Below the pieces are notes generated by a model. It was not told the origin of the DNA. It saw only the letters and a list, made by a program, of their open reading frames with translations, and searched no databases. Made by a program: the position numbers and the translations under genes. A DNA stretch of 26,241 nucleotides, taken from positions 1 through 26,241 of IMG/VR virus record IMGVR_UViG_3300017783_000173. One strand, written 5' to 3'. Origin of the DNA: a virus. Each line of letters begins with the position of its first letter. Position 1 is the first letter of the stretch. Positions 6,613-21,976 of the stretch are shown piece after piece.

Positions 6613-7383
6613 ATGGCAGCCACCGTTCTATCCGGCACCTCAGGTGCTCTCTATTACAAGCCAGCTGGCACGTTGGGTCAGTTTGCTGAAAGCGACGTCA
6701 CTGTTGCTGCGGACACCGTCACTGTCGCAACTTACCTCAACTTTAAGGCAGGCGATCCCGTCAAGTTCAGCGTAGTCAACACCACAACAGGTGCTGCTGG
6801 CTCTGGAACGTTGCCTGCTGGCATTGCCGCTGGCACGACCTACTACGTTATTTCTTACGTGGCAGCGACTGGTGTAATGCAGGTTTCTGCAACATCAGGC
6901 GGTTCTACCATTACGATCACAGACGACGGCACCGCTGTCGCTCCAAACAAGTTCCAGGTTGAATATGCAGCTTTTGCAGCTGTCGGCCAGGTTCGTGAAT
7001 GGAATTTTGAGATCACCCGTGACGAAATTGACGTCACAACCATTGGTGCTACGCCTGGGCAGTACGTTCCCTTCAAGACCTTTATTGCAGGTTTTGCTGA
7101 TGGTTCGGGAAGCGCAACTGTGTACTTCACTGACACTGACGATGCTCTGGGCAACCGGATGGTCGAAGACGTGCTTCAGCGTGTTCAGACCGGTTGTAAG
7201 TTCAAGCTTTATACCGATCAGCAATTTAGCGGTGGCACCTTGAACGACACACTGAGCCGTTCCATCGAGTTTGAGGCAAACTTGACTACAGCAAGCTTGG
7301 CCATCAACCCTGATGACGCCCAGTCTGTTGAGATCAACTTCCGTCCTACAACAACACCGACTTTCGACTTCGCTAAGTCCTAA
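6613..7383 (+). CDS. Major tail (tube) protein
   Basis: The 256-residue protein would form the stacked hexameric rings of the tail tube. A short N-terminal strand (SGTSGALYYKP) is followed by an inserted beta domain at about 25-118. That domain has the phage-tail pattern FKAGDPVKF...LPAGIAAGTTYYVI...MQVSATSGGSTI. The gpV-like tube core at about 125-256 contains VREWNFEITRDEIDVTTIG, SGSATVYFTD and GCKFKLY. Position between tail terminator and the assembly chaperones, plus a strong terminator after it, fits the major tail protein. Two later genes (17009-17443, 17440-18315) carry the same core pattern. Confidence 0.88.
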   Translation: MAATVLSGTSGALYYKPAGTLGQFAESDVTVAADTVTVATYLNFKAGDPVKFSVVNTTTGAAGSGTLPAGIAAGTTYYVISYVAATGVMQVSATSGGSTITITDDGTAVAPNKFQVEYAAFAAVGQVREWNFEITRDEIDVTTIGATPGQYVPFKTFIAGFADGSGSATVYFTDTDDALGNRMVEDVLQRVQTGCKFKLYTDQQFSGGTLNDTLSRSIEFEANLTTASLAINPDDAQSVEINFRPTTTPTFDFAKS

Positions 7384-11000: not shown

Positions 11001-11595
11001 AGCAACTGAAGCATTCGCTAATTTCTTGAGAACCATTGGGAACATGTTAGTCCAAGAAGGTACGAGGATGATTGCTACTTACATTGCGATCGGCATTGCG
11101 AAGGCATTTGCCGGGATGAGTGGCGGTGGCGGTGGCAGTGGTTCCGGCGCTGTTGATCCTGGCATTGTTATCCAAGATGGAAGTGGATTTGGCCTTTCTG
11201 GCGACATAATTCAGCAAGGCGGCCCTGGCTTTTCAGCTCTTAACCTTCCAACTGCTGCAAACGGTGGCCCTGTTGAAGGTGGTCAGCCTTATCTGGTTGG
11301 AGAGCGTGGCCCAGAGCTATTCGTTCCAGGGCAATCAGGCGGTGTCATGCGTAATGAGGACATGCGCTCCCTTATGGGTCGTTCTCCTGCTTCAGGAGGC
11401 GCACCATCCATGAACTTCAGCTTTGAGACAACCAGTATTGGTGGAACGGAATACGTCAGCCGTGAGCAGCTTGAATCTGCAATGGCAGTGACCCGTAAAC
11501 AAGCGTCTAATGACGGAGCAAAGCGAGGTATGAGCATGACGCTAGATAAGATGCAGAATAGTCCTAGAACTAGATCCAAGATTGGTCTTCGCTGA
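8035..11595 (+). CDS. Tail tape measure protein
   Basis: At 1186 residues this is the second-longest helical protein here and sits right after the chaperones. It sets tail length as a scaffold inside the tube and is ejected with DNA. Residues about 1-390 are almost pure charged coiled coil. Residues 394-437 are a glycine-rich hydrophobic segment (GAGFPLLFGGGPGSVLGG). A second helical stretch spans about 560-930. Residues about 995-1027 form another hydrophobic segment (ATYIAIGIAKAFAG). Residues about 1086-1098 carry LVGERGPELFVPG, the classic motif near tape measure C-termini. At about 0.15 nm per residue the tail would be near 180 nm. The start is GTG with a good ribosome site. Codon use is visibly A/T-richer in the middle. 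No peptidase or lysozyme domain was recognised. Confidence 0.92.
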   Translation: MADYQAKINLLVSGQAQLKALTRELKAANEEAETLKRKAQSLGGVASRARQVLGVTGRDQPRGEKGRFAKDPNRASRLNALQSERGAQRAAFLADRTAKLQFATARGVQKQIEGQKQLNNLVAKQTRTQIDLNKTTDLFETRLAKLRRGRVQDSKGSQPEIDAIRASSQQLQQAFKAALAGGEANLQLLKTTADAMGKLVERQNELNRLSKLRSKGFEKGRGLQERVDTLAESGRFAPQKVRQARALSTEVITAANVGDATKYANALGKAEAFIRRQEEFLGKVRAGQKSINVAQRSLNKLKSLELADQKLIAAVQGKLSKANVEALKGNVTKARQITDEVIEEVNAHKAVVAELKRENVQRDRGLARTRKQADKDARDAKAAKARERKKTGKLGTNVALGAGFPLLFGGGPGSVLGGILGSAFGMGGSVLGGALGQQFDKLGAAALSTGKAFNKASDNIDKFVSLIGQNGSKGFAGRAEFLSSQGLSSQVAVAAIQEFEKVYGTEARKKFEELGRTSKEFDNVMNDIGVTLQLLMAGPLKGLLDIIKQITGAGTREPQGQEASKQRFQKKADTAAIGIANLATKVQGMEPGDERFALAQKLNTLIIERAGNLRMVEDYNNRAANKTREILSLEKLLTNEVGKRKQLQADETAIVRDRLTARRDTLATMQGDLDLNKATADVEKLRAELAAEISLSGELSTKSLTVQNNLNKAIGVQNRARLNGANNILLTQRAINREVVNNEMATMASRQALDSVNNSLRAFQKTAVERYEDELTLIQSQFFITADLLDIKERIEKTGINEKEIIDAITVKYEMLRNLEKERAELATETARQRELERLDVQQQIKDQAALNNLKAASSAEKQIRSLSPETTGEFLGTGFGFFDGSSRLEAELGEDRIRQTQAYSLEIQALTDRIADLRAKGGDVELITGKEKDLKEVQRLADNYAKLQPGIDAARVSQERFNEAFALTAPAVNSVVNGLSEVIQGTQTATEAFANFLRTIGNMLVQEGTRMIATYIAIGIAKAFAGMSGGGGGSGSGAVDPGIVIQDGSGFGLSGDIIQQGGPGFSALNLPTAANGGPVEGGQPYLVGERGPELFVPGQSGGVMRNEDMRSLMGRSPASGGAPSMNFSFETTSIGGTEYVSREQLESAMAVTRKQASNDGAKRGMSMTLDKMQNSPRTRSKIGLR

Positions 11596-12002
11596 TGGCA
11601 ACAAGATTTCCGACAATGACGCCGTCGTCTAGAAAGATCACAATGGGCGATCTGCCCATTAAGGTTTACAGGGCAATGTCTGGCGCGACAGTACGTCGTG
11701 CTTTTGGTAATCAAAAGACGCAGTATGTTTTGAAACTACAGTTCAACAACATTGGTGATGACATTGAGCTGCGTCGAGGTGCCGGAACTGTTTTAGATAT
11801 TTTGAAGCATTACGAGTCCACCAACGGAACTCTTGAAAATTTTCAGCCAGGGACAGGTTTATTGCGGGGAATGGGTAATGCTTCTAAGGTTTATATTAAA
11901 GACGTAATAAAGTGGCGTTATGCCAAGCCCCCTGAGATACAAAGCGTAAAAGAGGGAGTTAGTAACGTTTCCATTGAACTTATAGCGGAGCTTGACGCAT
12001 AA
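11595..12002 (+). CDS. Minor tail protein, gpM-like position
   Basis: A 135-residue basic protein directly follows the tape measure with a one-base overlap (TGATG), and its own stop overlaps the next start (TAATG). Beta strands alternate (YVLKLQFNNIGDDIEL, YIKDVIKWRYAKPP, SNVSIELIAEL). The pattern and the place correspond to lambda gpM or the distal-tail proteins that begin the tail tip. I recognise no decisive motif, so the label is by synteny with the M-L-K-I-J order. Confidence 0.6.
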   Translation: MATRFPTMTPSSRKITMGDLPIKVYRAMSGATVRRAFGNQKTQYVLKLQFNNIGDDIELRRGAGTVLDILKHYESTNGTLENFQPGTGLLRGMGNASKVYIKDVIKWRYAKPPEIQSVKEGVSNVSIELIAELDA

Positions 12003-12472
12003 TGAGTAACGAAATCCGAATTTGTCAATTCATTGAAATTGACCCTAGCAAAGGCATGGTTAAGCGTTACCAGAATTATTTTATACAAGAAACCAAGATT
12101 TTTAAAGGTGAAAATTATAGTTTTGCTCCTTTTGAAGCAGAAGGCGGCGTGTCTAGCTTAAATGCGGAAAATCAGCAAGTTATTATTCGTTTGCCAGCCA
12201 GTGAGTACGCAATACGTCTTGTAGAAGAAGGCGACGGCAATAGGTTGAGTAAAATGCTTTTGTGTACCAGATTTATTACGGTTGGTGGCTCTATACCCGA
12301 CACTGGACCAGAGGAGTACTACGTAGGGATTGGAGCGTCATTTAGTGACGACACGATTGAGCTTCGTTTTCGATCTGCCTTAGATGGTGTTGCAGGAGGC
12401 TTTCCGGCTAGAACCCTGACGGAAAGAAACGTTGGCATTCTGCCACTTGACTCAAACTTGTCATTGCGATGA
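12002..12472 (+). CDS. Minor tail protein, gpL-like position
   Basis: The 156-residue protein is beta-rich (IRICQFIEIDPSKGMV, ENQQVIIRLPASEYAIRLVEE, YYVGIGASFSDDTIELRFRSALD). The C-terminal FRSALDGV-like stretch and the SLNAENQQ segment resemble the beginning of gpL-type tail-tip proteins, which here would link the tube to the hub. No iron-sulfur cysteine cluster typical of lambda gpL is visible; only two cysteines are present. The last four bases overlap the next gene (ATGA). Confidence 0.6.
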   Translation: MSNEIRICQFIEIDPSKGMVKRYQNYFIQETKIFKGENYSFAPFEAEGGVSSLNAENQQVIIRLPASEYAIRLVEEGDGNRLSKMLLCTRFITVGGSIPDTGPEEYYVGIGASFSDDTIELRFRSALDGVAGGFPARTLTERNVGILPLDSNLSLR

Positions 12473-12843
12473 ATGACTTAATCGGGCTGGAATATTGCTG
12501 GGGCGCACACCCAGCAGACGGACGAAATAAGACTGATTGCTTTCAGTTGCTTTGTGAAATCCGTTCACGGCTTGGGTTGTCGGATTACAAAGAGCAGTTT
12601 TGTTGGGTTTACTGGCTGTACTCAGCCGAAACACTTAAACCAAGTCAGATGGCTCGGTGGTTACTTCAAAGCGGGAAGCGGCTTAAGATACCAAAAGTTG
12701 GTGCTGCCGCTTTGCTTGCTGAGCCAAACAATGCTGCGCTTGGAACGGTGACTGATCAGGGTTTGATCTGTCTTGCTCCTGGCGGCCAAGTTGTTTGCGT
12801 TCCAGTTGAGCGCGTCAATGCACATTATTTCTGGTTGAACTGA
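12469..12843 (+). CDS. NlpC/P60-like tail peptidase, gpK-like
   Basis: The 124-residue protein opens with a segment like the catalytic part of NlpC/P60 cysteine peptidases. It reads GLEYCWGAHPADGRNKTDCF, with C24 after an acidic residue, followed by a helix LLCEIRSRLGL. In lambda-like phages this gene (K) sits just before I and J and is thought to act on cell-wall peptides during tail entry. The C-terminal half has a short beta region (GLICLAPGGQVVCVPV) and ends with H119. Whether that histidine is the catalytic partner is uncertain, because the usual HVGIY pattern is missing. The enzyme could be degenerate or purely structural. Confidence 0.6.
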   Translation: MNDLIGLEYCWGAHPADGRNKTDCFQLLCEIRSRLGLSDYKEQFCWVYWLYSAETLKPSQMARWLLQSGKRLKIPKVGAAALLAEPNNAALGTVTDQGLICLAPGGQVVCVPVERVNAHYFWLN

Positions 12844-15800
12844 TGGATCGGAGACTGCTGCCTTACGAGTACCAGCTGATTGAAGCGCTGGGGGTAAGCA
12901 AGGAAGAGTATCTGGAGTTTGTTGCGCTACAGCAGGAATATAAGGATCCAAAAGCTGGCAGTGCGCTTGACGTTAGGAATGAAGTGGGAACGATTGCGCT
13001 TGTCCTAACGGTTGTTGGGATTCTGTTTCAGGTTGGAGCGGCACTATTAGCACCCAAGCCAAATGTTCCTGGTCTTAAAAACGATAAAAGGAGTAGACAG
13101 CAACGTTTTGCGCCCTCTTCTGGTTTTAATAGCGCCCCAGAGCTTGCGTCTTACGGTGATCCAGTAAACCTTGTCTACACCAATAAAGACCACAATCGAT
13201 CAGGAGGAGTTCGTGTTAGCGGCTCTTTAGTCTGGTCGTCAGTGGATAATTATGGTTCATCGCAGTTTATGCAGCTGCTGTTTGTTCTTGGTGCGGCGCA
13301 AATACTAAACCTTAGTATCAAAAGAACTGCTTTTGGTTCTCTTTCGGTTGACCAGTTAGACCCAGCGACAGTTTTTTTATTTTATAAGAGCGCAGCTGAG
13401 GGCAAAAATCCAGCATTTAATGATCTTGCATTGCCCAGAGGAGGTGATCTCAGCTTTTATCCACAAGACCTGAAGCGTGACAATAATCAGGCAGTTTGTC
13501 AAGTTGTTACTATTAAAAATAGCAGTGGTACGGCAGGATTCAGCCAAGCATATTCTCCTACTACTTCATCATCAATCGGAGTTTATGACCCTATCCCTGT
13601 CAACGTAGAAATGGTGACAAGAGATACTAACGGCGAGGAACGATACGCTATCAATGGAATTGAGCTAGAACAACTTGACTGGACAAGTCCAAGTTTTCAG
13701 TACACAAAAGGCAAGGAAATTATAGTTAGATTTCAGTCTAAAGGTTACGAACGCCACAACGATAATGGTGAAGCACGCCCTTTAGGTGTTAATCTTCGCC
13801 GTCAAGCAGTAAGTGCTTTGGACTTTGGAAGCACTTATATGTTGGGATCTGCAAAATTTCGTTTAATTAGTTTTGGAAACTCTAAGGATATTGATGATGG
13901 TGACGTAAACGCAACTTTTAGGTGCGTAGAGAGCGGCTTCTGCCCAACCGCCCCATACGATGAAGTGTTGCCCGTGCAGGAGGCAAAAGAGGAAAAAGCA
14001 AAGTTAGAGCAGCATATGAAAATACTAAGAAATGTGACGGAAGACGAAGAAGCAGTACCTGACCCTCCTACTCAAAGCAATAAAAATTTTCAAGACTTGT
14101 CTGCCGTTGAGAAAGAAACAGAAAAAGAATCGAATCTACGACAATACATAAGAACAAGATTTCAAAATACTTATCAGCTAGGCCACTGCAAAGTCAATTA
14201 TGATTTTAATAGCGACCGTATAGTTAGTTGGATAAACGTACTTGATGAAATAAAGTATAAAGCAATTGATCCGGGGGGTTCAATTGAATATACAAAAGAA
14301 TTACAACGTGAGTTTATGGCAGACCCGCCAACCATTAAACGGTCGAAAGTTATTGATGAGTTGGAAAGTGATCGCGATAAAGCGCAAGAGGTAATTGCTG
14401 AAGTTATTGCCGGAGAGCATGATAAGTCAGATATTTGGCTAAGCATAATTACTATAGGTGGTCAACCTAGAGGTTTAAGATCCGCTATTATAGTAGCAAT
14501 TAAAGAAGATAAGCAAAAAGGGGAGCTGGGTGTACTGCTTAGCGAGCTAGATAGTATAAAAAATGATCTAAATAACATTAAGTCAAGAATTCGTGAAGGT
14601 CTTAATAAGTCAAAACGAGTTAAAGAGTCTTCTTTCAACCAAGCGACCAAGTCAAGTAGTGCAAAGGGCGTGTACAGGATACCCAGTTGGGATCAACTAA
14701 GAGACGAGAAAACAGGAGGTATGTCATTAAGGCGCTCAGCAAGCAAACTCGAAATAAAACTTTCTGAAGTAAAAGATAAAATTCAAGCTAGGCGCGAAGA
14801 GATCAAGGCTAAGGAAAGAAGGCCGGTAATTAGGCAACTGCGAAAGGCAGAAAGCGCTTTTACGAGTCTTTCCCCAGTTGAGAATGGTTTGAACGTAGAG
14901 AATAGATACGGCTTTGGCGGCCTTAATGCAATGAACAGACTGCTAAATAGTTTGCCAAAGGGTAAAAAAATTGTTGACGAAGACGCTATAAATGCAGCAG
15001 GGAGAGTATTCGGGAAAATTTTAGCAGATAAAGGAAACGCTAAACGTGCAATTAATCGTTTTTTAGATAACTGGGAGGACTGCTTGAAGGCAGCTGATAA
15101 CCATTTCTTTGTTAAGGCTTTAGTAAAAGCAGAATCAGCGGCATACGAGACGATGAGCGAAGTTGATCAAGTTAAATTTTCAATTAAATCAAAACTGTTT
15201 AGACGAATATCTGGCCGTCAAAAAAAGTATGGCGAGATACGGGCATCAAAAAGATATTCAAGAGGCGACAACGGAATACATGCACGCCAAGCTTTCTTTA
15301 GGTTTTCCTACAAGAAAGAATCAGCCACGCGCTATACAGTGCATCCAGTGCTTTTCTCTTTGCGCCAAGCTTCAGAAAGCGATGCGTACACTGATTTTAA
15401 TTTTCTTGCCCCAAGCCGTGCCAGGTATGCTTTCAAGCTCGAACCTGTCTATGACGTAGCTTCTGAGCTTAGATTAAACGGCCAAGAAACGATTGTTGTT
15501 TTAAGCAGCAACGAAACAAGCAAGTCTACAAAAAACGCTGTTGACTCCGTAATTGTATGGTACAAAGGCTCAGAAATACATATAGCGGAGCAAAAGAAAA
15601 AGAACGAGCCATATCTTATAGAGCGTGGGCCTGAGCTTATAAATGAGTGGGACGTATTTTCGGTTAACACTGACACTGAAATTCAGTTTAGCCTTGAGAA
15701 TGGCCCCGAAATGTCATTAACCGCTGTAACTGAACAACAAATCCAAAGCGCCAAAGGAATCTACAACGACCTTTCAATGCTTGGATTAAGCATGTTTGCC

Positions 15801-16976
15801 GGTCGAAATGTTCAAGATATGCGTAATGTGAGTGCATTTGTGGAGCAAGGTAAAACAAGTTATACAGTGAACGACTTTGACAGCCTACCCACTGCAAGCA
15901 CAAGCTTTGCCCCTGACATTTTTGTAGACACCGTCCTTGACAAAAGAAATGGAATTGGCAAATACGCGCCAAAATCTGTTTTAGATCAAGATAGCCTTCA
16001 GCTTGCAAAAAGATTCTGCCAACGAAATAATCTGCCTGGTCACTTTGAAGAGAACGAGACGCCGACAAGCATTAGATTGTTTATGGATTGTGTAATTGCT
16101 GATGACTCGTCTTGGCGCGAGTTCTGGGTAAGCAATGCTCCTTTTAGCTTGCTTGAGTTTGCGCGAAAAAATGGCAAGGAGACTCTAGTTCCCGTTGTGC
16201 CCGTAACCGGAAGTGGCAGAGCAGCCGAAGACGATGGACGCCCCATCTCTCTGGCTATTTCCGCATTGTTCACGACAGGAAACATACTGGAAAATTCTTA
16301 CAAGGAAGAGTTTCTGGACTATGGCGCAAGTACTCAAGACTTAATTGCAAGTGTCATTTACAGAGAAGAATACGCAGAAACGGTTTTTCAGCGTAAAAGA
16401 ACAGTTCAAGTTAAAAGAAAAAATACTAATGTAAACAAAGCAATTAAAGAAACGTTTGACGCAAGTGGTTTTATTACGAGCAGGCAACAAGCAATTTTGT
16501 TTGGCAAGATGCTTGTCAACCAGCGTAAATTTATCAGGCGTGGCGTTGAGTTTAAGACGTTCCCTTCAAACAATCCAGTTGAGCCTGGAGCCTTTATTTA
16601 TGTAGACATCGGTCTTACTAACTGGGAAAGACGGTCTTCCGGCGTTATTGGTACGGACGGAATTTTAAATTCGCCATTGCAAGATAAAATTGAAGACGGA
16701 ACTTATAGCTTTTTAATTTACGATCGAAACGATAGCAAGGTGCACGCTAGAGACTTAGTAGCAGTGTCAGGCGGAGTTGCCTCTCAGCTTAGTGAGAACG
16801 CACAAAACCTGTATGTGATGGGGATTGATCCGGGGAAGAAGCGTGTGTTCCGCATCACGGAAGTAGAAATGGATCAGGATGGAGAGGTGACGGTAAGGGC
16901 TGTCGAGTATCCGTGCGATGATGAGGACCGCGCTTATGTTGCAGACTTTAGGTCCACCGAGTTTGATGTGAGCTAG
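12843..16976 (+). CDS. Tail-tip hub / host-specificity protein (gpI + gpJ-like)
   Basis: The 1377-residue protein would form the central trimeric hub at the tail end that opens on host contact. Residues about 49-70 are a hydrophobic, glycine-containing helix followed by APKP, which is typical of lambda gpI. The part after it (SAPELASYGDPVNLVY, residue ~100) begins the gpJ-like beta region, so I and J appear fused. Residues about 377-756 are a very charged, largely helical insertion with coiled-coil segments. The later part (ESAAYETMSEVDQVKFSIKS, then beta-rich sequence) and a C-terminal part with GKKRVFRITEVEMDQDGEVTV look like the conserved gpJ body. No repeat-rich receptor domain follows; that role is probably taken by the fibre genes downstream. 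Confidence 0.8.
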   Translation: MDRRLLPYEYQLIEALGVSKEEYLEFVALQQEYKDPKAGSALDVRNEVGTIALVLTVVGILFQVGAALLAPKPNVPGLKNDKRSRQQRFAPSSGFNSAPELASYGDPVNLVYTNKDHNRSGGVRVSGSLVWSSVDNYGSSQFMQLLFVLGAAQILNLSIKRTAFGSLSVDQLDPATVFLFYKSAAEGKNPAFNDLALPRGGDLSFYPQDLKRDNNQAVCQVVTIKNSSGTAGFSQAYSPTTSSSIGVYDPIPVNVEMVTRDTNGEERYAINGIELEQLDWTSPSFQYTKGKEIIVRFQSKGYERHNDNGEARPLGVNLRRQAVSALDFGSTYMLGSAKFRLISFGNSKDIDDGDVNATFRCVESGFCPTAPYDEVLPVQEAKEEKAKLEQHMKILRNVTEDEEAVPDPPTQSNKNFQDLSAVEKETEKESNLRQYIRTRFQNTYQLGHCKVNYDFNSDRIVSWINVLDEIKYKAIDPGGSIEYTKELQREFMADPPTIKRSKVIDELESDRDKAQEVIAEVIAGEHDKSDIWLSIITIGGQPRGLRSAIIVAIKEDKQKGELGVLLSELDSIKNDLNNIKSRIREGLNKSKRVKESSFNQATKSSSAKGVYRIPSWDQLRDEKTGGMSLRRSASKLEIKLSEVKDKIQARREEIKAKERRPVIRQLRKAESAFTSLSPVENGLNVENRYGFGGLNAMNRLLNSLPKGKKIVDEDAINAAGRVFGKILADKGNAKRAINRFLDNWEDCLKAADNHFFVKALVKAESAAYETMSEVDQVKFSIKSKLFRRISGRQKKYGEIRASKRYSRGDNGIHARQAFFRFSYKKESATRYTVHPVLFSLRQASESDAYTDFNFLAPSRARYAFKLEPVYDVASELRLNGQETIVVLSSNETSKSTKNAVDSVIVWYKGSEIHIAEQKKKNEPYLIERGPELINEWDVFSVNTDTEIQFSLENGPEMSLTAVTEQQIQSAKGIYNDLSMLGLSMFAGRNVQDMRNVSAFVEQGKTSYTVNDFDSLPTASTSFAPDIFVDTVLDKRNGIGKYAPKSVLDQDSLQLAKRFCQRNNLPGHFEENETPTSIRLFMDCVIADDSSWREFWVSNAPFSLLEFARKNGKETLVPVVPVTGSGRAAEDDGRPISLAISALFTTGNILENSYKEEFLDYGASTQDLIASVIYREEYAETVFQRKRTVQVKRKNTNVNKAIKETFDASGFITSRQQAILFGKMLVNQRKFIRRGVEFKTFPSNNPVEPGAFIYVDIGLTNWERRSSGVIGTDGILNSPLQDKIEDGTYSFLIYDRNDSKVHARDLVAVSGGVASQLSENAQNLYVMGIDPGKKRVFRITEVEMDQDGEVTVRAVEYPCDDEDRAYVADFRSTEFDVS

Positions 16977-17008: not shown

Positions 17009-17443
17009 ATGGCCTTCTACACCGGACGCAGTGGCTCATTGGTCTTCGACAGCAAACCTGTCGCTAAGATTCGTGACTGGTCTGTAGAGACCACGCTTGA
17101 GTTGCTGAGCACCAACACTATTGACAGCGCAAGCAATACCTTTACTCCTGGAGTCAAGAGCGCAACAGGTAGCGCAACTTTGATGTACTACAGGCTTGAT
17201 GGAGGGGAGAGTGCAAGCTTTACTGAGTTTACAAAGTTGCTATCAAAGATTCACAAGACTGGCTCTATCGAGACAAGTGACAGGGTGCTTATGGAGCTAA
17301 ACGTTGGAACGGGGGACTTAGACGACATTAAGTTTAACGCTTACATCACATCTGCAAGCATTTCAGTTTCGACTGGTGAGCTAAGTGTTGTTCCAATTAA
17401 TTTTACGGTTGACGGCGACTTTATTCAAGTTATTAGTTCATGA
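17009..17443 (+). CDS. Tail-tube-like protein, short paralogue
   Basis: The 144-residue protein has the features of a bare tube domain. An N-terminal strand GRSGSLVFDSKP is followed by IRDWSVETTLELLSTNTID at residues 21-39, then a G-A-T-G-S-A-T-L strand (about 50-60) and beta-rich sequence to the end. The same succession occurs in the major tail protein (VREWNFEITRDEIDVTTIG, SGSATVYF). It lacks the inserted domain. Position after the hub and before the fibres suggests a collar or adaptor ring at the tail tip rather than the main tube. The stop overlaps the next start by four bases (ATGA). Confidence 0.65.
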   Translation: MAFYTGRSGSLVFDSKPVAKIRDWSVETTLELLSTNTIDSASNTFTPGVKSATGSATLMYYRLDGGESASFTEFTKLLSKIHKTGSIETSDRVLMELNVGTGDLDDIKFNAYITSASISVSTGELSVVPINFTVDGDFIQVISS

Positions 17444-18315
17444 CGTTTTTTCTTGGCAGCCAAGGCAATATCCGGTTACGTCGTGGAACGCAAATTGTTT
17501 TAGGCAATTTAGCGGAGCAAGTTTCTAGCGACGACATCAGTACGACGCTTAGCCGCATTGGGACGTCAAGCGGGGTAGACAATCTTTTTACAGGAGACAA
17601 GGTTGATATTGGAACAAGTGACGCACGTAATCTTTTGTTCATTCCAGCCTCTAACTGGTCTTCTGGAGCAATAGAAGACACTTTTAGCGCTTTTGTAAAT
17701 GTAAATGCTGCTGGTGGCTTGCGCTTATACCCGACATTTGCTGATGCTGTAAATAATAATCGGACAAGCGAAGTTGCCTTGCAATCGTTTACGGGAGATC
17801 CTATTGCGATAACAATTGATGTTAGAGACGTCGGCTCTAATATCCTTGGCGATGTCACGAACTACGAATTTAACGCCAGTCGTGAGCAGGTTGACACAAC
17901 AACGCTTTCGGATAAGTTTAAGAATCAATACAATGCTGGCTTGATTAGTGGCAGCGGGCGTATTGAGTGCATTTTTAACAATGCGACTAATGGCGCAAAG
18001 GAGACGTCACTCTTGATGCTTCAGTTGATACAAAGGTTAGATTTAGGCTGTGCCTTTGACCTTTTCCTTCATTTAGTTGATAACGATTTAAGCCCAACAG
18101 AGCAGAGCATTTTTTACTCTCTCACTGCTGTTGTCACCAATTCTGGCGTTTCAGTTGACCTAGATGACGCAATTAGATGCACTTTGGATTTTGTGACGAC
18201 CGGCGAGTTAAAGCTTGTGGTTGGCACGTTTGCCGAGTACCTGCTGAAAGAAGATGACGATCGAATCCGTCAAGAGCAGTCTCTCAATTTCCTGTTGACG
18301 GAAGTTACGGATTAA
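17440..18315 (+). CDS. Tail-tube-like protein, long paralogue with inserted domain
   Basis: At 291 residues this is a longer version of the same architecture. Residues 1-22 give an opening strand (GSQGNIRLRRG). Residues about 50-115 resemble the inserted domain of the major tail protein (LFTGDKVDI...IPASNWSSGAI...GGLRLYPTFADA). Residues about 139-255 carry the tube core (VTNYEFNASREQVDTTTLS, then SGSGRIECIF, then LGCAFDLFL). A charged tail follows (KEDDDRIRQEQ). It is translationally coupled to the short paralogue. I infer a pair of tip proteins derived from the tube; a role in fibre attachment is possible but not shown. Confidence 0.62.
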   Translation: MTFFLGSQGNIRLRRGTQIVLGNLAEQVSSDDISTTLSRIGTSSGVDNLFTGDKVDIGTSDARNLLFIPASNWSSGAIEDTFSAFVNVNAAGGLRLYPTFADAVNNNRTSEVALQSFTGDPIAITIDVRDVGSNILGDVTNYEFNASREQVDTTTLSDKFKNQYNAGLISGSGRIECIFNNATNGAKETSLLMLQLIQRLDLGCAFDLFLHLVDNDLSPTEQSIFYSLTAVVTNSGVSVDLDDAIRCTLDFVTTGELKLVVGTFAEYLLKEDDDRIRQEQSLNFLLTEVTD

Positions 18316-18352: not shown

Positions 18353-21300
18353 TTGGCTGACCAACGAATTACGCAGCTTAACGAGCTGTCCAAGGCTGGG
18401 GTTGCAGCAGTAGACGTTCTGCCTATTGCGGACATTAGCGGTTCCGAGACCAAGAAGGTTACTGTAAAAAACCTTGTTGAAGCTGGTTTTGACCTGCTCG
18501 ACGCCAACACCGTTGACCTAAGCAAGCTTGATCAAAGCAGTACGACAAAGCTAGGCACAGTTTCGATTGCTGATGACGCAATTACCTATGCCAAGGTTCA
18601 AAACGTTACGGCCACTGATCGTTTGCTGGGACGGAGCAGCGCAAACGCTGGAATTATTGAGGAAATTGTTTGTACCGCTGCAGGCCGAGCGTTACTAGAT
18701 GACTTAAGTGCTGCAGCTCAACGAACAACGTTAGGTCTTGGCACGATTGCCACGCTTAATGCTGACGGATCAACCCTTACAAACCTGACCGTTACCAGTG
18801 GCACGATCACTGGCATTACAGACATCACCATTGCGGATGGTGGAACGGGAGCAAGTGATGCAGCCAATGCACGGGTAAATCTTGGTATAGCAATAGGCAC
18901 CAATGTCCAGGCTTATGACGCTGGCCTGCAGTCAATAGCAGCATTAACGACTGCCGCAGACCAAGGCATTTATGCGACTGCATCTAACACATATAATGTC
19001 TTTTCATTAACTGCAGCAGGCAGGGCGCTGCTTGCTGACACTGATGCCGCAACTCAACGCACCACGCTTGGTCTTGGGACGTTAGCAACACAAAACGGAA
19101 CCTTTGCTGGAACGCATTCGGGCACAAGCTCCGGCACTAATACTGGTGATCAAACGATCGCACTGACGGGAGCTGTTACCGGTACAGGTACAGGTTCATT
19201 CGCGACAACACTCGCAGCAGGGATTGTTGACGAAGCAAACATTGTCAACGATGCCGTTACTTATGAAAAAATTCAAAATGTAACAACAACTGATGTAATT
19301 TTAGGTCGAGAATCTAGTGGTTCTGGCGTAATTGAGCAGATTGATTGTACTGCCGCAGGTCGGGCGTTAATTGACGACGCTGATGCTGCTGCTCAAAGAA
19401 CAACTCTGGGCCTTGGAACGTTAGCCACACAAAGCGCCACAGTTGCTGGCACTCATTCAGGTACGAGTTCAGGCACTAATACAGGCGATCAAACAATTGA
19501 GCTTACTGGCGCAGTTACAGGTACTGGCACCGGATCTTTTGCAACCAGCCTTTCTTCAAACATTGTTCAGACAAATAATATTGCGTCAGACGCAGTCACT
19601 TACGACAAGCTGCAGGACACCACGTCTGCTGATGTACTTTTAGGCCGTGCATCTGGCGGTTCAGGCACAATTGAGCAGATTAGTTGTACTCCTGTAGGCC
19701 GTGCGTTAATTGCTGATGCCAATACTGGAGAACAAAGAGCAACATTAGGACTTGGAACGTTAGCCACGCAAGATGGCACTTTCAGTGGTTCACATTCAGG
19801 CGCAAGTACCGGCACTAACACTGGTGATCAAACAATTACATTGAGCGGTGTTGTCACAGGCACGGGCACAGGATCATTTGCAACAAGCTTTGCCGCTGGA
19901 GTTGTTAACAGTGCAGCTATTGCCAGTGACGCTGTCACCTATGACAAAATTCAAAACACAGCCAGCACTGACATAATTCTTGGCCGGAGCTCTGTAGGCG
20001 GCGGTTTAATTGAAGAAATAGCTTGTACTGCGGCTGGTCGAGCTTTACTTAATGATGGGGCGGCAGCTGACCAACGCGCCACACTAGGCCTTGGGAATTT
20101 AGCCGTTGCTAATGGAACCTGGACAGATGGTTCAGTGTTTAGCGGAACCAGTAGCGGAACAAATACTGGCGATCAAACAATTACATTGACTGGGGCCGTA
20201 ACAGGCAGCGGCACTGGATCGTTTGTAACAGCACTTGCCAATGACATTGTTCTTGAAGCGAACCTCGGAACCAGCTCGGTAACAAGTGGAAAGCTTCACG
20301 CCAGTTCAGTTATTGCAGAAAAAATTGGTGATCAAGCGACCTGCATTGTTAGCAGTGCTACTCCTTCAGGAACAGGTGAGTACATAGGCCAAGGTTGGTA
20401 TAACACCAGTACAAGCATTGCGTATCGCTGGAGCGGATCAGCTTGGTCACAAGAGGCTGGCATTCAATCAATAACAGTTACAGAATCAACCCCATTCGCT
20501 GTTGTTGTTAGCAACCCAACTGCATTTACAACTGATCTTTCGCTGTCACTTGATACGCAAGTTGCAGCAAGTGTATTTGTGGGGCCAGCTACTGGAGCGG
20601 ATGCCGCACCAACATTCCGCAGTTTGCTGCCAACTGACTTGCCTGATGCAACAGCATCTGCAAAGGGGATTATTCAGCCCGGAACAGGCTTAGCAGTCAC
20701 AAGTGGAACATTGAATCATAGTAATTCCGTAACTGGAGCAACAGTTAGCGGAGTTACATTTGACGCTCAAGGTCATATTACTGCAGCAACTGCGCTGCTT
20801 TACACAGATATTCCTGATCTTGATGCAGCAAAGATTACAACAGGTGAGTTTTCAACTACTCATATTTCTGATAGCGCAATTACTGGAAGCAAGCTTGCCG
20901 ACAGTTCTGTCACTACATTTGGCGAATCCTTGCCAACTGCTGCATTTAAAGGACAGTTATTTTTCAACCCGCTTGAAAAAAACTTCTTTGTTTGGGATGG
21001 CAACGTTTGGCAACCGCTTGGTATCTCAGCTGGCGCAATTATTCTTGCTGGTACTTACAACGCAACAACAAACAAAGTCGCAAGTGTTACTGGGGAAGGT
21101 TCTGCTTTAGGACTAGGTGTTGGCAATGCTTTGCCTTCTCCAGATTCAGAAAACTCAAATTATTATCTTGTTGTCGCGATTGGTGGCACGGGAACAGCAC
21201 CAGCGCCTCAAGTATTGCTTTCTCCGCCTGACATCCTTTTATCAGACGGAACAAATTGGATTGAAATCGATGTTTCGTCTACTTATACGTCGCAAACAGC

Positions 21301-21976
21301 TAATAATGTTTCATTTTCCCCTGCGGCAAATCTTACCAGCACAAACGTACAGCTAGCTCTTGAGGAAGTCAGTACCCAATTCCGTGTTGCTACCAACCTG
21401 ACCAGTGGAATGCTGGCTGTACCTCGTGGAGGTACTGGGATTGCCTCTTATACAAAGGGCGATCTGATCGTTTCAACAGCAGCAACAACTCTGGCCAAGC
21501 TTGGTGTTGGAACTAATGGTTACGTCCTCAGCGCTAATAGCAGTGAGACAACTGGCCTTGAGTGGGTTGCTAATCAGGCTGGCACTGTCACTAACGTCAC
21601 CGGCACCGCTCCAATTCAGATTGCAACTGGAACAACAACGCCTGCAATTTCAATCACAACTGGTACGACAAGTGCAGTTGGTGTCCTGCAGCTGACTGAT
21701 GGCGTTGCAAGTTCTAGTACAACAACTGCTGCCACACCAAATGGGGTCAAGACAGCGTATGACTTGGCTGCACTGGCATTACCAAAAGCTGGCGGCACGA
21801 TTAGCGGTCAATTGTTGTTTGACGAAAACGCATCACTGGCATTTGAGGGTGCCAGCCCTGATGATTTTGAAACAACTTTGGCGGTTGCCGATCCAACAGC
21901 AGATCGTGTTGTGACGTTGCCTGATTTGACTGGAACGGTTGCTTTAACCAGTCAGCTGGATGACGGCAGTTTTTGA
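18353..21976 (+). CDS. Repeat-rich tail fibre protein 1
   Basis: The 1207-residue protein starts MADQRITQLNEL...VLPIADISGSETKKVTVKNL, a common phage fibre N-terminus. Residues about 60-650 hold near-identical repeats of about 113 residues. Each has DAVTYxKIQN, LGRxSxGxGxIEQI, CTAAGRALL, QRTTLGLGTLAT, GTxSGTNTGDQTI and GAVTGTGTGSFAT. Later parts carry an YWWN-like collar segment (GQGWYNTSTSIAYRW, about 675-690), GGTGIAS motifs and finally LPKAGGTISGQLLF with a module (FEGASPDDFETTLAVADPTADR) also found in fibre 2. There is no extra C-terminal head after that module. The protein is probably an elongated trimeric host-contact fibre. Start is TTG with a strong ribosome site. Confidence 0.85.
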   Translation: MADQRITQLNELSKAGVAAVDVLPIADISGSETKKVTVKNLVEAGFDLLDANTVDLSKLDQSSTTKLGTVSIADDAITYAKVQNVTATDRLLGRSSANAGIIEEIVCTAAGRALLDDLSAAAQRTTLGLGTIATLNADGSTLTNLTVTSGTITGITDITIADGGTGASDAANARVNLGIAIGTNVQAYDAGLQSIAALTTAADQGIYATASNTYNVFSLTAAGRALLADTDAATQRTTLGLGTLATQNGTFAGTHSGTSSGTNTGDQTIALTGAVTGTGTGSFATTLAAGIVDEANIVNDAVTYEKIQNVTTTDVILGRESSGSGVIEQIDCTAAGRALIDDADAAAQRTTLGLGTLATQSATVAGTHSGTSSGTNTGDQTIELTGAVTGTGTGSFATSLSSNIVQTNNIASDAVTYDKLQDTTSADVLLGRASGGSGTIEQISCTPVGRALIADANTGEQRATLGLGTLATQDGTFSGSHSGASTGTNTGDQTITLSGVVTGTGTGSFATSFAAGVVNSAAIASDAVTYDKIQNTASTDIILGRSSVGGGLIEEIACTAAGRALLNDGAAADQRATLGLGNLAVANGTWTDGSVFSGTSSGTNTGDQTITLTGAVTGSGTGSFVTALANDIVLEANLGTSSVTSGKLHASSVIAEKIGDQATCIVSSATPSGTGEYIGQGWYNTSTSIAYRWSGSAWSQEAGIQSITVTESTPFAVVVSNPTAFTTDLSLSLDTQVAASVFVGPATGADAAPTFRSLLPTDLPDATASAKGIIQPGTGLAVTSGTLNHSNSVTGATVSGVTFDAQGHITAATALLYTDIPDLDAAKITTGEFSTTHISDSAITGSKLADSSVTTFGESLPTAAFKGQLFFNPLEKNFFVWDGNVWQPLGISAGAIILAGTYNATTNKVASVTGEGSALGLGVGNALPSPDSENSNYYLVVAIGGTGTAPAPQVLLSPPDILLSDGTNWIEIDVSSTYTSQTANNVSFSPAANLTSTNVQLALEEVSTQFRVATNLTSGMLAVPRGGTGIASYTKGDLIVSTAATTLAKLGVGTNGYVLSANSSETTGLEWVANQAGTVTNVTGTAPIQIATGTTTPAISITTGTTSAVGVLQLTDGVASSSTTTAATPNGVKTAYDLAALALPKAGGTISGQLLFDENASLAFEGASPDDFETTLAVADPTADRVVTLPDLTGTVALTSQLDDGSF
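18671..20300 (+). repeat. 339-base tandem repeats in fibre 1
   Basis: Units that begin at the CTAAGRA segment lie at 18671, about 19007, 19346, 19685 and 20024. Spacings are about 336 for the first and exactly 339 for the next three; the last unit is about six bases longer by its GTNTGDQ spacing. Units diverge at the third codon position, so they are old duplications under protein selection rather than recent copies. The first unit differs most: it has an ITIADGGTGASDAANA segment in place of the GTNTGDQ segment. Confidence 0.85.

Follow-up and report, generated by a model that had tools for sequence, protein, structure and literature searches.

What are two tube-like proteins doing between the hub and fibre genes of a tail module that already has a major tail protein? 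The question is raised by a 26,241-base virus record (the whole stretch analysed, called here the window) with a siphovirus-type head–tail module. Its genes run portal, capsid, head–tail adaptor, head closure, tail terminator, major tail (tube) protein (MTP), chaperone and tape measure, followed by gpM-, gpL-, gpK- and gpJ-like tip genes, the two genes in question (X144 and X291) and two fibre genes; the names portal, capsid, gpL, gpK and fibre 2 are based on position and resemblance. The virus belongs to an uncultured aquatic lineage and, judging from the best isolate matches, which are Synechococcus and Prochlorococcus phages, probably has a cyanobacterial host. The features needed below are as follows.

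6613–7383, + strand: MTP, 256 aa; the tube domain contains an insert (about residues 20–121); matches phrog_1407 and phrog_10528, 'major tail protein'
11595–12002, + strand: gpM-like minor/distal tail protein; phrog_15525 'minor tail protein', E 1e-15
12843–16976, + strand: gpJ-like hub/central fibre, directly 5' of X144; phrog_31 'central tail fiber J', E 3e-7, and a TipJ-related NCBIfam model under its cut-off
17009–17443, + strand: X144, 144 aa; tail-tube paralogue without insert (hhalign, AlphaFold2 model, PHROG matches)
17440–17443, + strand: ATGA overlap of the X144 stop and the X291 start (from the coordinates)
17440–18315, + strand: X291, 291 aa; tube domain (about residues 4–28 and 121–263), inserted domain (about 29–121) and conserved C-terminal tail (about 263–291) (hhalign, AlphaFold2 model)
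18353–21976, + strand: fibre 1, directly 3' of X291; phrog_24210 'tail fiber protein', N-terminus conserved across relatives

Translational coupling of X144 and X291 through the ATGA overlap is possible. Promoter and terminator counts around the pair were about those of shuffled sequence, and no gpI gene was recognised in the tip region of the window. Elsewhere in the window, positions 282–653 on the − strand hold an ORF with a zinc-ribbon-like CPKC...CTVC start, resembling by eye an NrdR-type regulator, and positions 12469–12843 encode a small gpK-like protein that has no significant family match and whose DCFQL motif resembles, by eye, that of cysteine peptidases.

Three tube-domain proteins in one tail module

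The MTP gene is flanked by those of the tail terminator (phrog_179) and the assembly chaperone (phrog_344), and the protein is 71% identical to one encoded at the equivalent gene position in the isolate phage KBS-S-2A. A preliminary description of this DNA had grouped X144 and X291 with the MTP on the strength of short shared motifs. The three ORFs lie where it placed them and have the lengths it gave, and the motifs are found; the 'SG' opening attributed to all three is exact in the MTP (SGALYY) and X144 (SGSLVF), and X291 has a looser form of it (QGNIRL). The likeness goes beyond the motifs and is well above chance. BLASTP aligns the MTP with X144 at E 9e-8 across 126 residues and with X291 at E 2e-6, and the corresponding Smith–Waterman z-scores are 9.6 and 9.1, with none of 1000 shuffles scoring as high. 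Identity to the MTP is 23–26% over the aligned stretch, and X144 and X291 are separate ORFs about 10 kb from it. Compared directly, X144 and X291 are only weakly similar (Smith–Waterman z 2.6). Between profile families (51 sequences for X144, 40 for X291 and 19 for the MTP), hhalign gives 97.8% (E 1.2e-12) for X144 and the MTP, 96.0% (E 4.2e-9) for X291 and the MTP, and 93.3% (E 2.6e-7) for X144 and X291. As a negative control, the family of the gpM-like neighbour stays at noise level, below 1% against each of the three, and was rejected as a homologue of the paralogues: the profiles detect nothing, though lambda gpM has a tube fold.

Family databases agree with this grouping. PHROG 'major tail protein' models match the X291 family as well as X144, where 39 of 51 members match phrog_10528, and Pfam tail-tube families match some members of both (best E 6e-9 for X144, weak for X291); a PDB sequence search with the three profiles returned nothing relevant. 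When six-frame ORFs were searched with the HMMs, exactly three tube-domain ORFs were found in the window, and likewise three in every one of six relatives. Isolates that were examined carry a single one, except Synechococcus phage S-H1, in which two tube-protein genes, both annotated hypothetical, stand in tandem in the MTP position (L137:19582–19998 and 20001–20423). In phage MED4-117 the MTP gene and the one after it appear at both record ends (L222:229–1030 and L223:10092–10806); this is probably an unresolved assembly end repeat rather than a true duplication.

The predicted structures, which are of moderate confidence (AlphaFold2 pLDDT 72 for X144 and 74 for X291), match solved tail tubes, with a beta-sandwich and a flanking helix, as the preliminary description had led one to expect. 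All 18 Foldseek matches of X144 at E ≤ 0.001 are tail, neck, tip or baseplate chains of phages or phage-like particles, headed by the tail tubes of a monocin, roseophage R4C and lambda (gpV), with E about 1e-4 and probability 1.0; VIA-align against the PDB gives Z up to 9.2. The model of X144 is a plain single-domain tube architecture with no additions. Whole-chain Foldseek matches of X291 are weaker than those of X144. With VIA-align, which can skip inserts, its best match is a chain of an 80alpha baseplate entry (Z 12.1, rmsd 3.2 over 122 residues), followed by the SPP1, R4C and lambda tail tubes. The aligned range of X291 spans residues 4–263, yet only about 110–125 residues are aligned, which fits a tube fold broken by residues about 29–121. 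Its C-terminal tail (about 263–291) is about as conserved as the rest of the protein but has low pLDDT. The inserts of X291 and the MTP sit in the same place, after the first strand; homology between them was rejected (hhalign 1.8%, with only a short GDxV match). T5 p140, discussed below, could not be recognised among the listed structural matches, which is no evidence against an analogy with T5.

Sequence and fold together support X144 and X291 as true tail-tube paralogues and members of the tail-tube protein superfamily. In a tree the MTP and X291 each form one well-supported clade and X144 nearly does so (one long-branch row strays), which indicates that the tube-gene duplications are old. 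That the two are recent tandem duplicates, or functionless remnants of a captured MTP, is hardly credible: a tandem tube-gene pair does exist in S-H1, but X144 and X291 fall into separate deep clades, occur in hundreds of relatives and are strongly conserved (median identity of X144, 73%). The fold itself is versatile, since Hcp, terminator and baseplate chains are likewise among the structural matches. It could thus serve outside the tube channel, in fibre-base adaptors or decoration, and both the position of the genes directly 5' of a fibre gene and the insert and tail of X291 would suit such a use; X144, however, retains the unembellished tube architecture, and we regard this role as unlikely.

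An obligate pair linked to the tip genes

A scan of IMG/VR by sequence pattern, confirmed with profiles, recovered at least 538 relatives with X144 and 363 with X291, the X291 profile being small and led by a divergent member. The two genes overlap or nearly overlap among relatives and are practically inseparable. Among 187 distinct X291 genes with sufficient sequence on their 5' side, HMM searches place X144 immediately before 186; in the sole exception (L327) the X144 gene overlaps the open frame and fails the distance rule only, a boundary artefact. In the other direction, 153 distinct X144-type genes had sufficient sequence on their 3' side, and X291 directly follows 150 of them, the other three being that of L327 and the short MTPs of L019 and L082, both in the MTP position. 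The pair comes after the hub genes in every relative whose gene order was read, so that the placement between hub and fibres pointed out earlier for the window is conserved, and conserved for the two genes as a unit. It is absent from every isolate phage examined; tblastn found no match to X291 in 50,697 phage records, including with the divergent member as query, and none of 50 pattern matches in bacterial and archaeal genomes was confirmed. The X144–X291 pair is a stable trait of a widespread uncultured aquatic siphovirus lineage.

Whether this trait belongs to the tube or to the tip can be read from natural gene exchanges. KBS-S-2A, which has the MTP in common with the window (71%), carries a classic lambda-type gpM-L-K-I-J tip (genes named by position and sequence) and lacks X144 and X291. 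In L019 and L082 the MTP is a different, short one, yet X144 (80% and 75% identity) and X291 (63%) are still there. The swapped-in gene, a tube protein of another type, lies at 1519–1965 in L019 and 1236–1685 in L082, with the tip pair retained. The pair survives replacement of the MTP and is missing where only the MTP is common; it therefore tracks the tip and not the tube. In the window, too, the main-tube position between tail terminator and chaperone/tape measure is held by 6613–7383, and the place of X144 and X291 after gpJ does not correspond to it. These exchanges weigh directly on the reading of X144 and X291 as alternative subunits of the tube, either interspersed over its entire length or building a distinct segment of it, somewhat in the manner of SPP1 gp17.1 and gp17.1*. 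Fold and homology would allow such subunits, but proteins that travel with the tip rather than with the MTP make it decidedly unlikely.

Two tip gene orders occur within the lineage. In the window the order is tape measure-gpM-gpL-gpK-gpJ-X144-X291-fibre; in many relatives it is tape measure-gpL-gpK-gpJ-gpM-X144-X291-fibre, so that the gpM-like gene (11595–12002 in the window, 9594–9968 in L079) adjoins X144. Between hub types, as compared with within them, median identity drops from 32 to 22% for gpJ and from 51 to 30% for gpL; it hardly changes for X144 (73/73%), X291 (58/55%) and the fibre N-terminus (71/67%). As the MTP is likewise unchanged (few pairs available), this comparison alone cannot separate tip from tube, which the KBS-S-2A and L019/L082 swaps do; the pattern would also arise from a hub block recombining between conserved flanks.

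Probable extra rings at the hub: precedents and arrangements

Tube paralogues at the tail tip have precedents. In T5 the tube extends beyond its last tube-protein ring by a ring of p140, a trimer forming a pseudo-hexamer, judged to be a tube-protein duplicate and encoded among the tip genes; the p132 collar encircles this ring and anchors the side fibres (PMC10038345). The preliminary description had called tube paralogues between hub and fibres unusual, which holds for lambda-like siphophages but overlooks p140. X144 and X291 resemble p140 as tube paralogues encoded beside hub and fibre genes. They differ in that the window has two paralogues instead of one, and in that a p140 ring of three chains implies two tube domains per chain, whereas X144 has one domain and X291 one domain plus an insert. 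The hub of the window is lambda-like, unlike that of T5, and the window ORFs pass from X291 straight to fibre 1, with no extra gene in between as a candidate counterpart of the Ig/BppU-like p132. T4 gp54, named as a similar extra ring (PMC10038345), and gp48 add tube-like rings where tube and baseplate hub meet (PMC10038345; PMC8718954); the likeness to X144 and X291 is by description, and T4 is contractile and of a separate lineage. By its topology lambda gpM is a tube protein, and its ring links tube to hub (PMC10721106), but the window has a gpM-like gene of its own in addition, in which profile comparison detects no similarity to X144 or X291. In SPP1, gp17.1* is the tube protein gp17.1 with a C-terminal extension (PMC8718954); more than one form of tube protein in one phage is common to both cases, but the second SPP1 form is an extension of one protein and X144 and X291 are separate old genes near the tip.

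Our preferred reading, to which we assign a probability of about two in three, builds on the homology and predicted fold of X144 and X291, on their obligate pairing and on their association with the tip genes: they are specialised tip tube paralogues, probably forming one or two extra hexameric rings by the hub and offering an outward docking surface, probably for fibres. The rings would follow the last MTP ring and precede the distal-tail/hub proteins (gpM-, gpL- and gpJ-like), and the DNA channel of the tube would run on through them. We infer ring formation and position in the virion, and likewise fibre docking, for which the insert and C-terminal tail of X291, if they point outward, would be natural elements.

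Genes that overlap and are obligately paired suggest that the two proteins occur in a fixed ratio, which keeps a special form of the extra-ring explanation alive: one mixed ring with three copies of each protein, a pseudo-hexamer at which the six-fold symmetry of the tube would give way to a three-fold platform on top of the trimeric hub. The p140 ring of T5 is likewise a pseudo-hexamer (PMC10038345), and the last ring of lambda is made up of hexamerisation domains, three from gpL and three from gpJ (PMC10721106). Two stacked rings would, however, also account for the pairing, and lambda manages the six-to-three transition with gpM conformers alone (PMC10721106), so that we hold the mixed ring to be rather improbable, if a live alternative.

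That the fibres attach at X144 and X291 is plausible from gene order and the T5 analogy. The conserved N-terminal domain of fibre 1 was considered as proof of docking and rejected, because it also occurs in KBS-S-2A, which has neither protein; this weakens the claim that the domain docks on the pair. A bolder proposal, in which the mixed 3 + 3 ring, or two specialised rings, would be a dedicated fibre-bearing tube collar in a lambda-like tip, separate from T5 p140/p132, is put forward tentatively, and the balance tilts against it.

Extra tube rings next to the hub were known already from T5 p140 and T4 gp54; X144 and X291 show that tube-gene duplication for use at the tip occurs with lambda-like hubs too. 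For annotation they carry a warning, as 'major tail protein' matches located after gpJ are likely to be tip proteins and not the tail tube. The authors of the T5 work regarded the p140/p132 landmark as confined to T5-like phages and argued that side-fibre anchoring must therefore differ in other siphophages (PMC10038345). The X144–X291 pair is a concrete, testable candidate for such anchoring outside the T5-like phages, and a fibre-bearing collar made of it would, if true, be an attachment solution common to a widespread lineage of uncultured aquatic phages.
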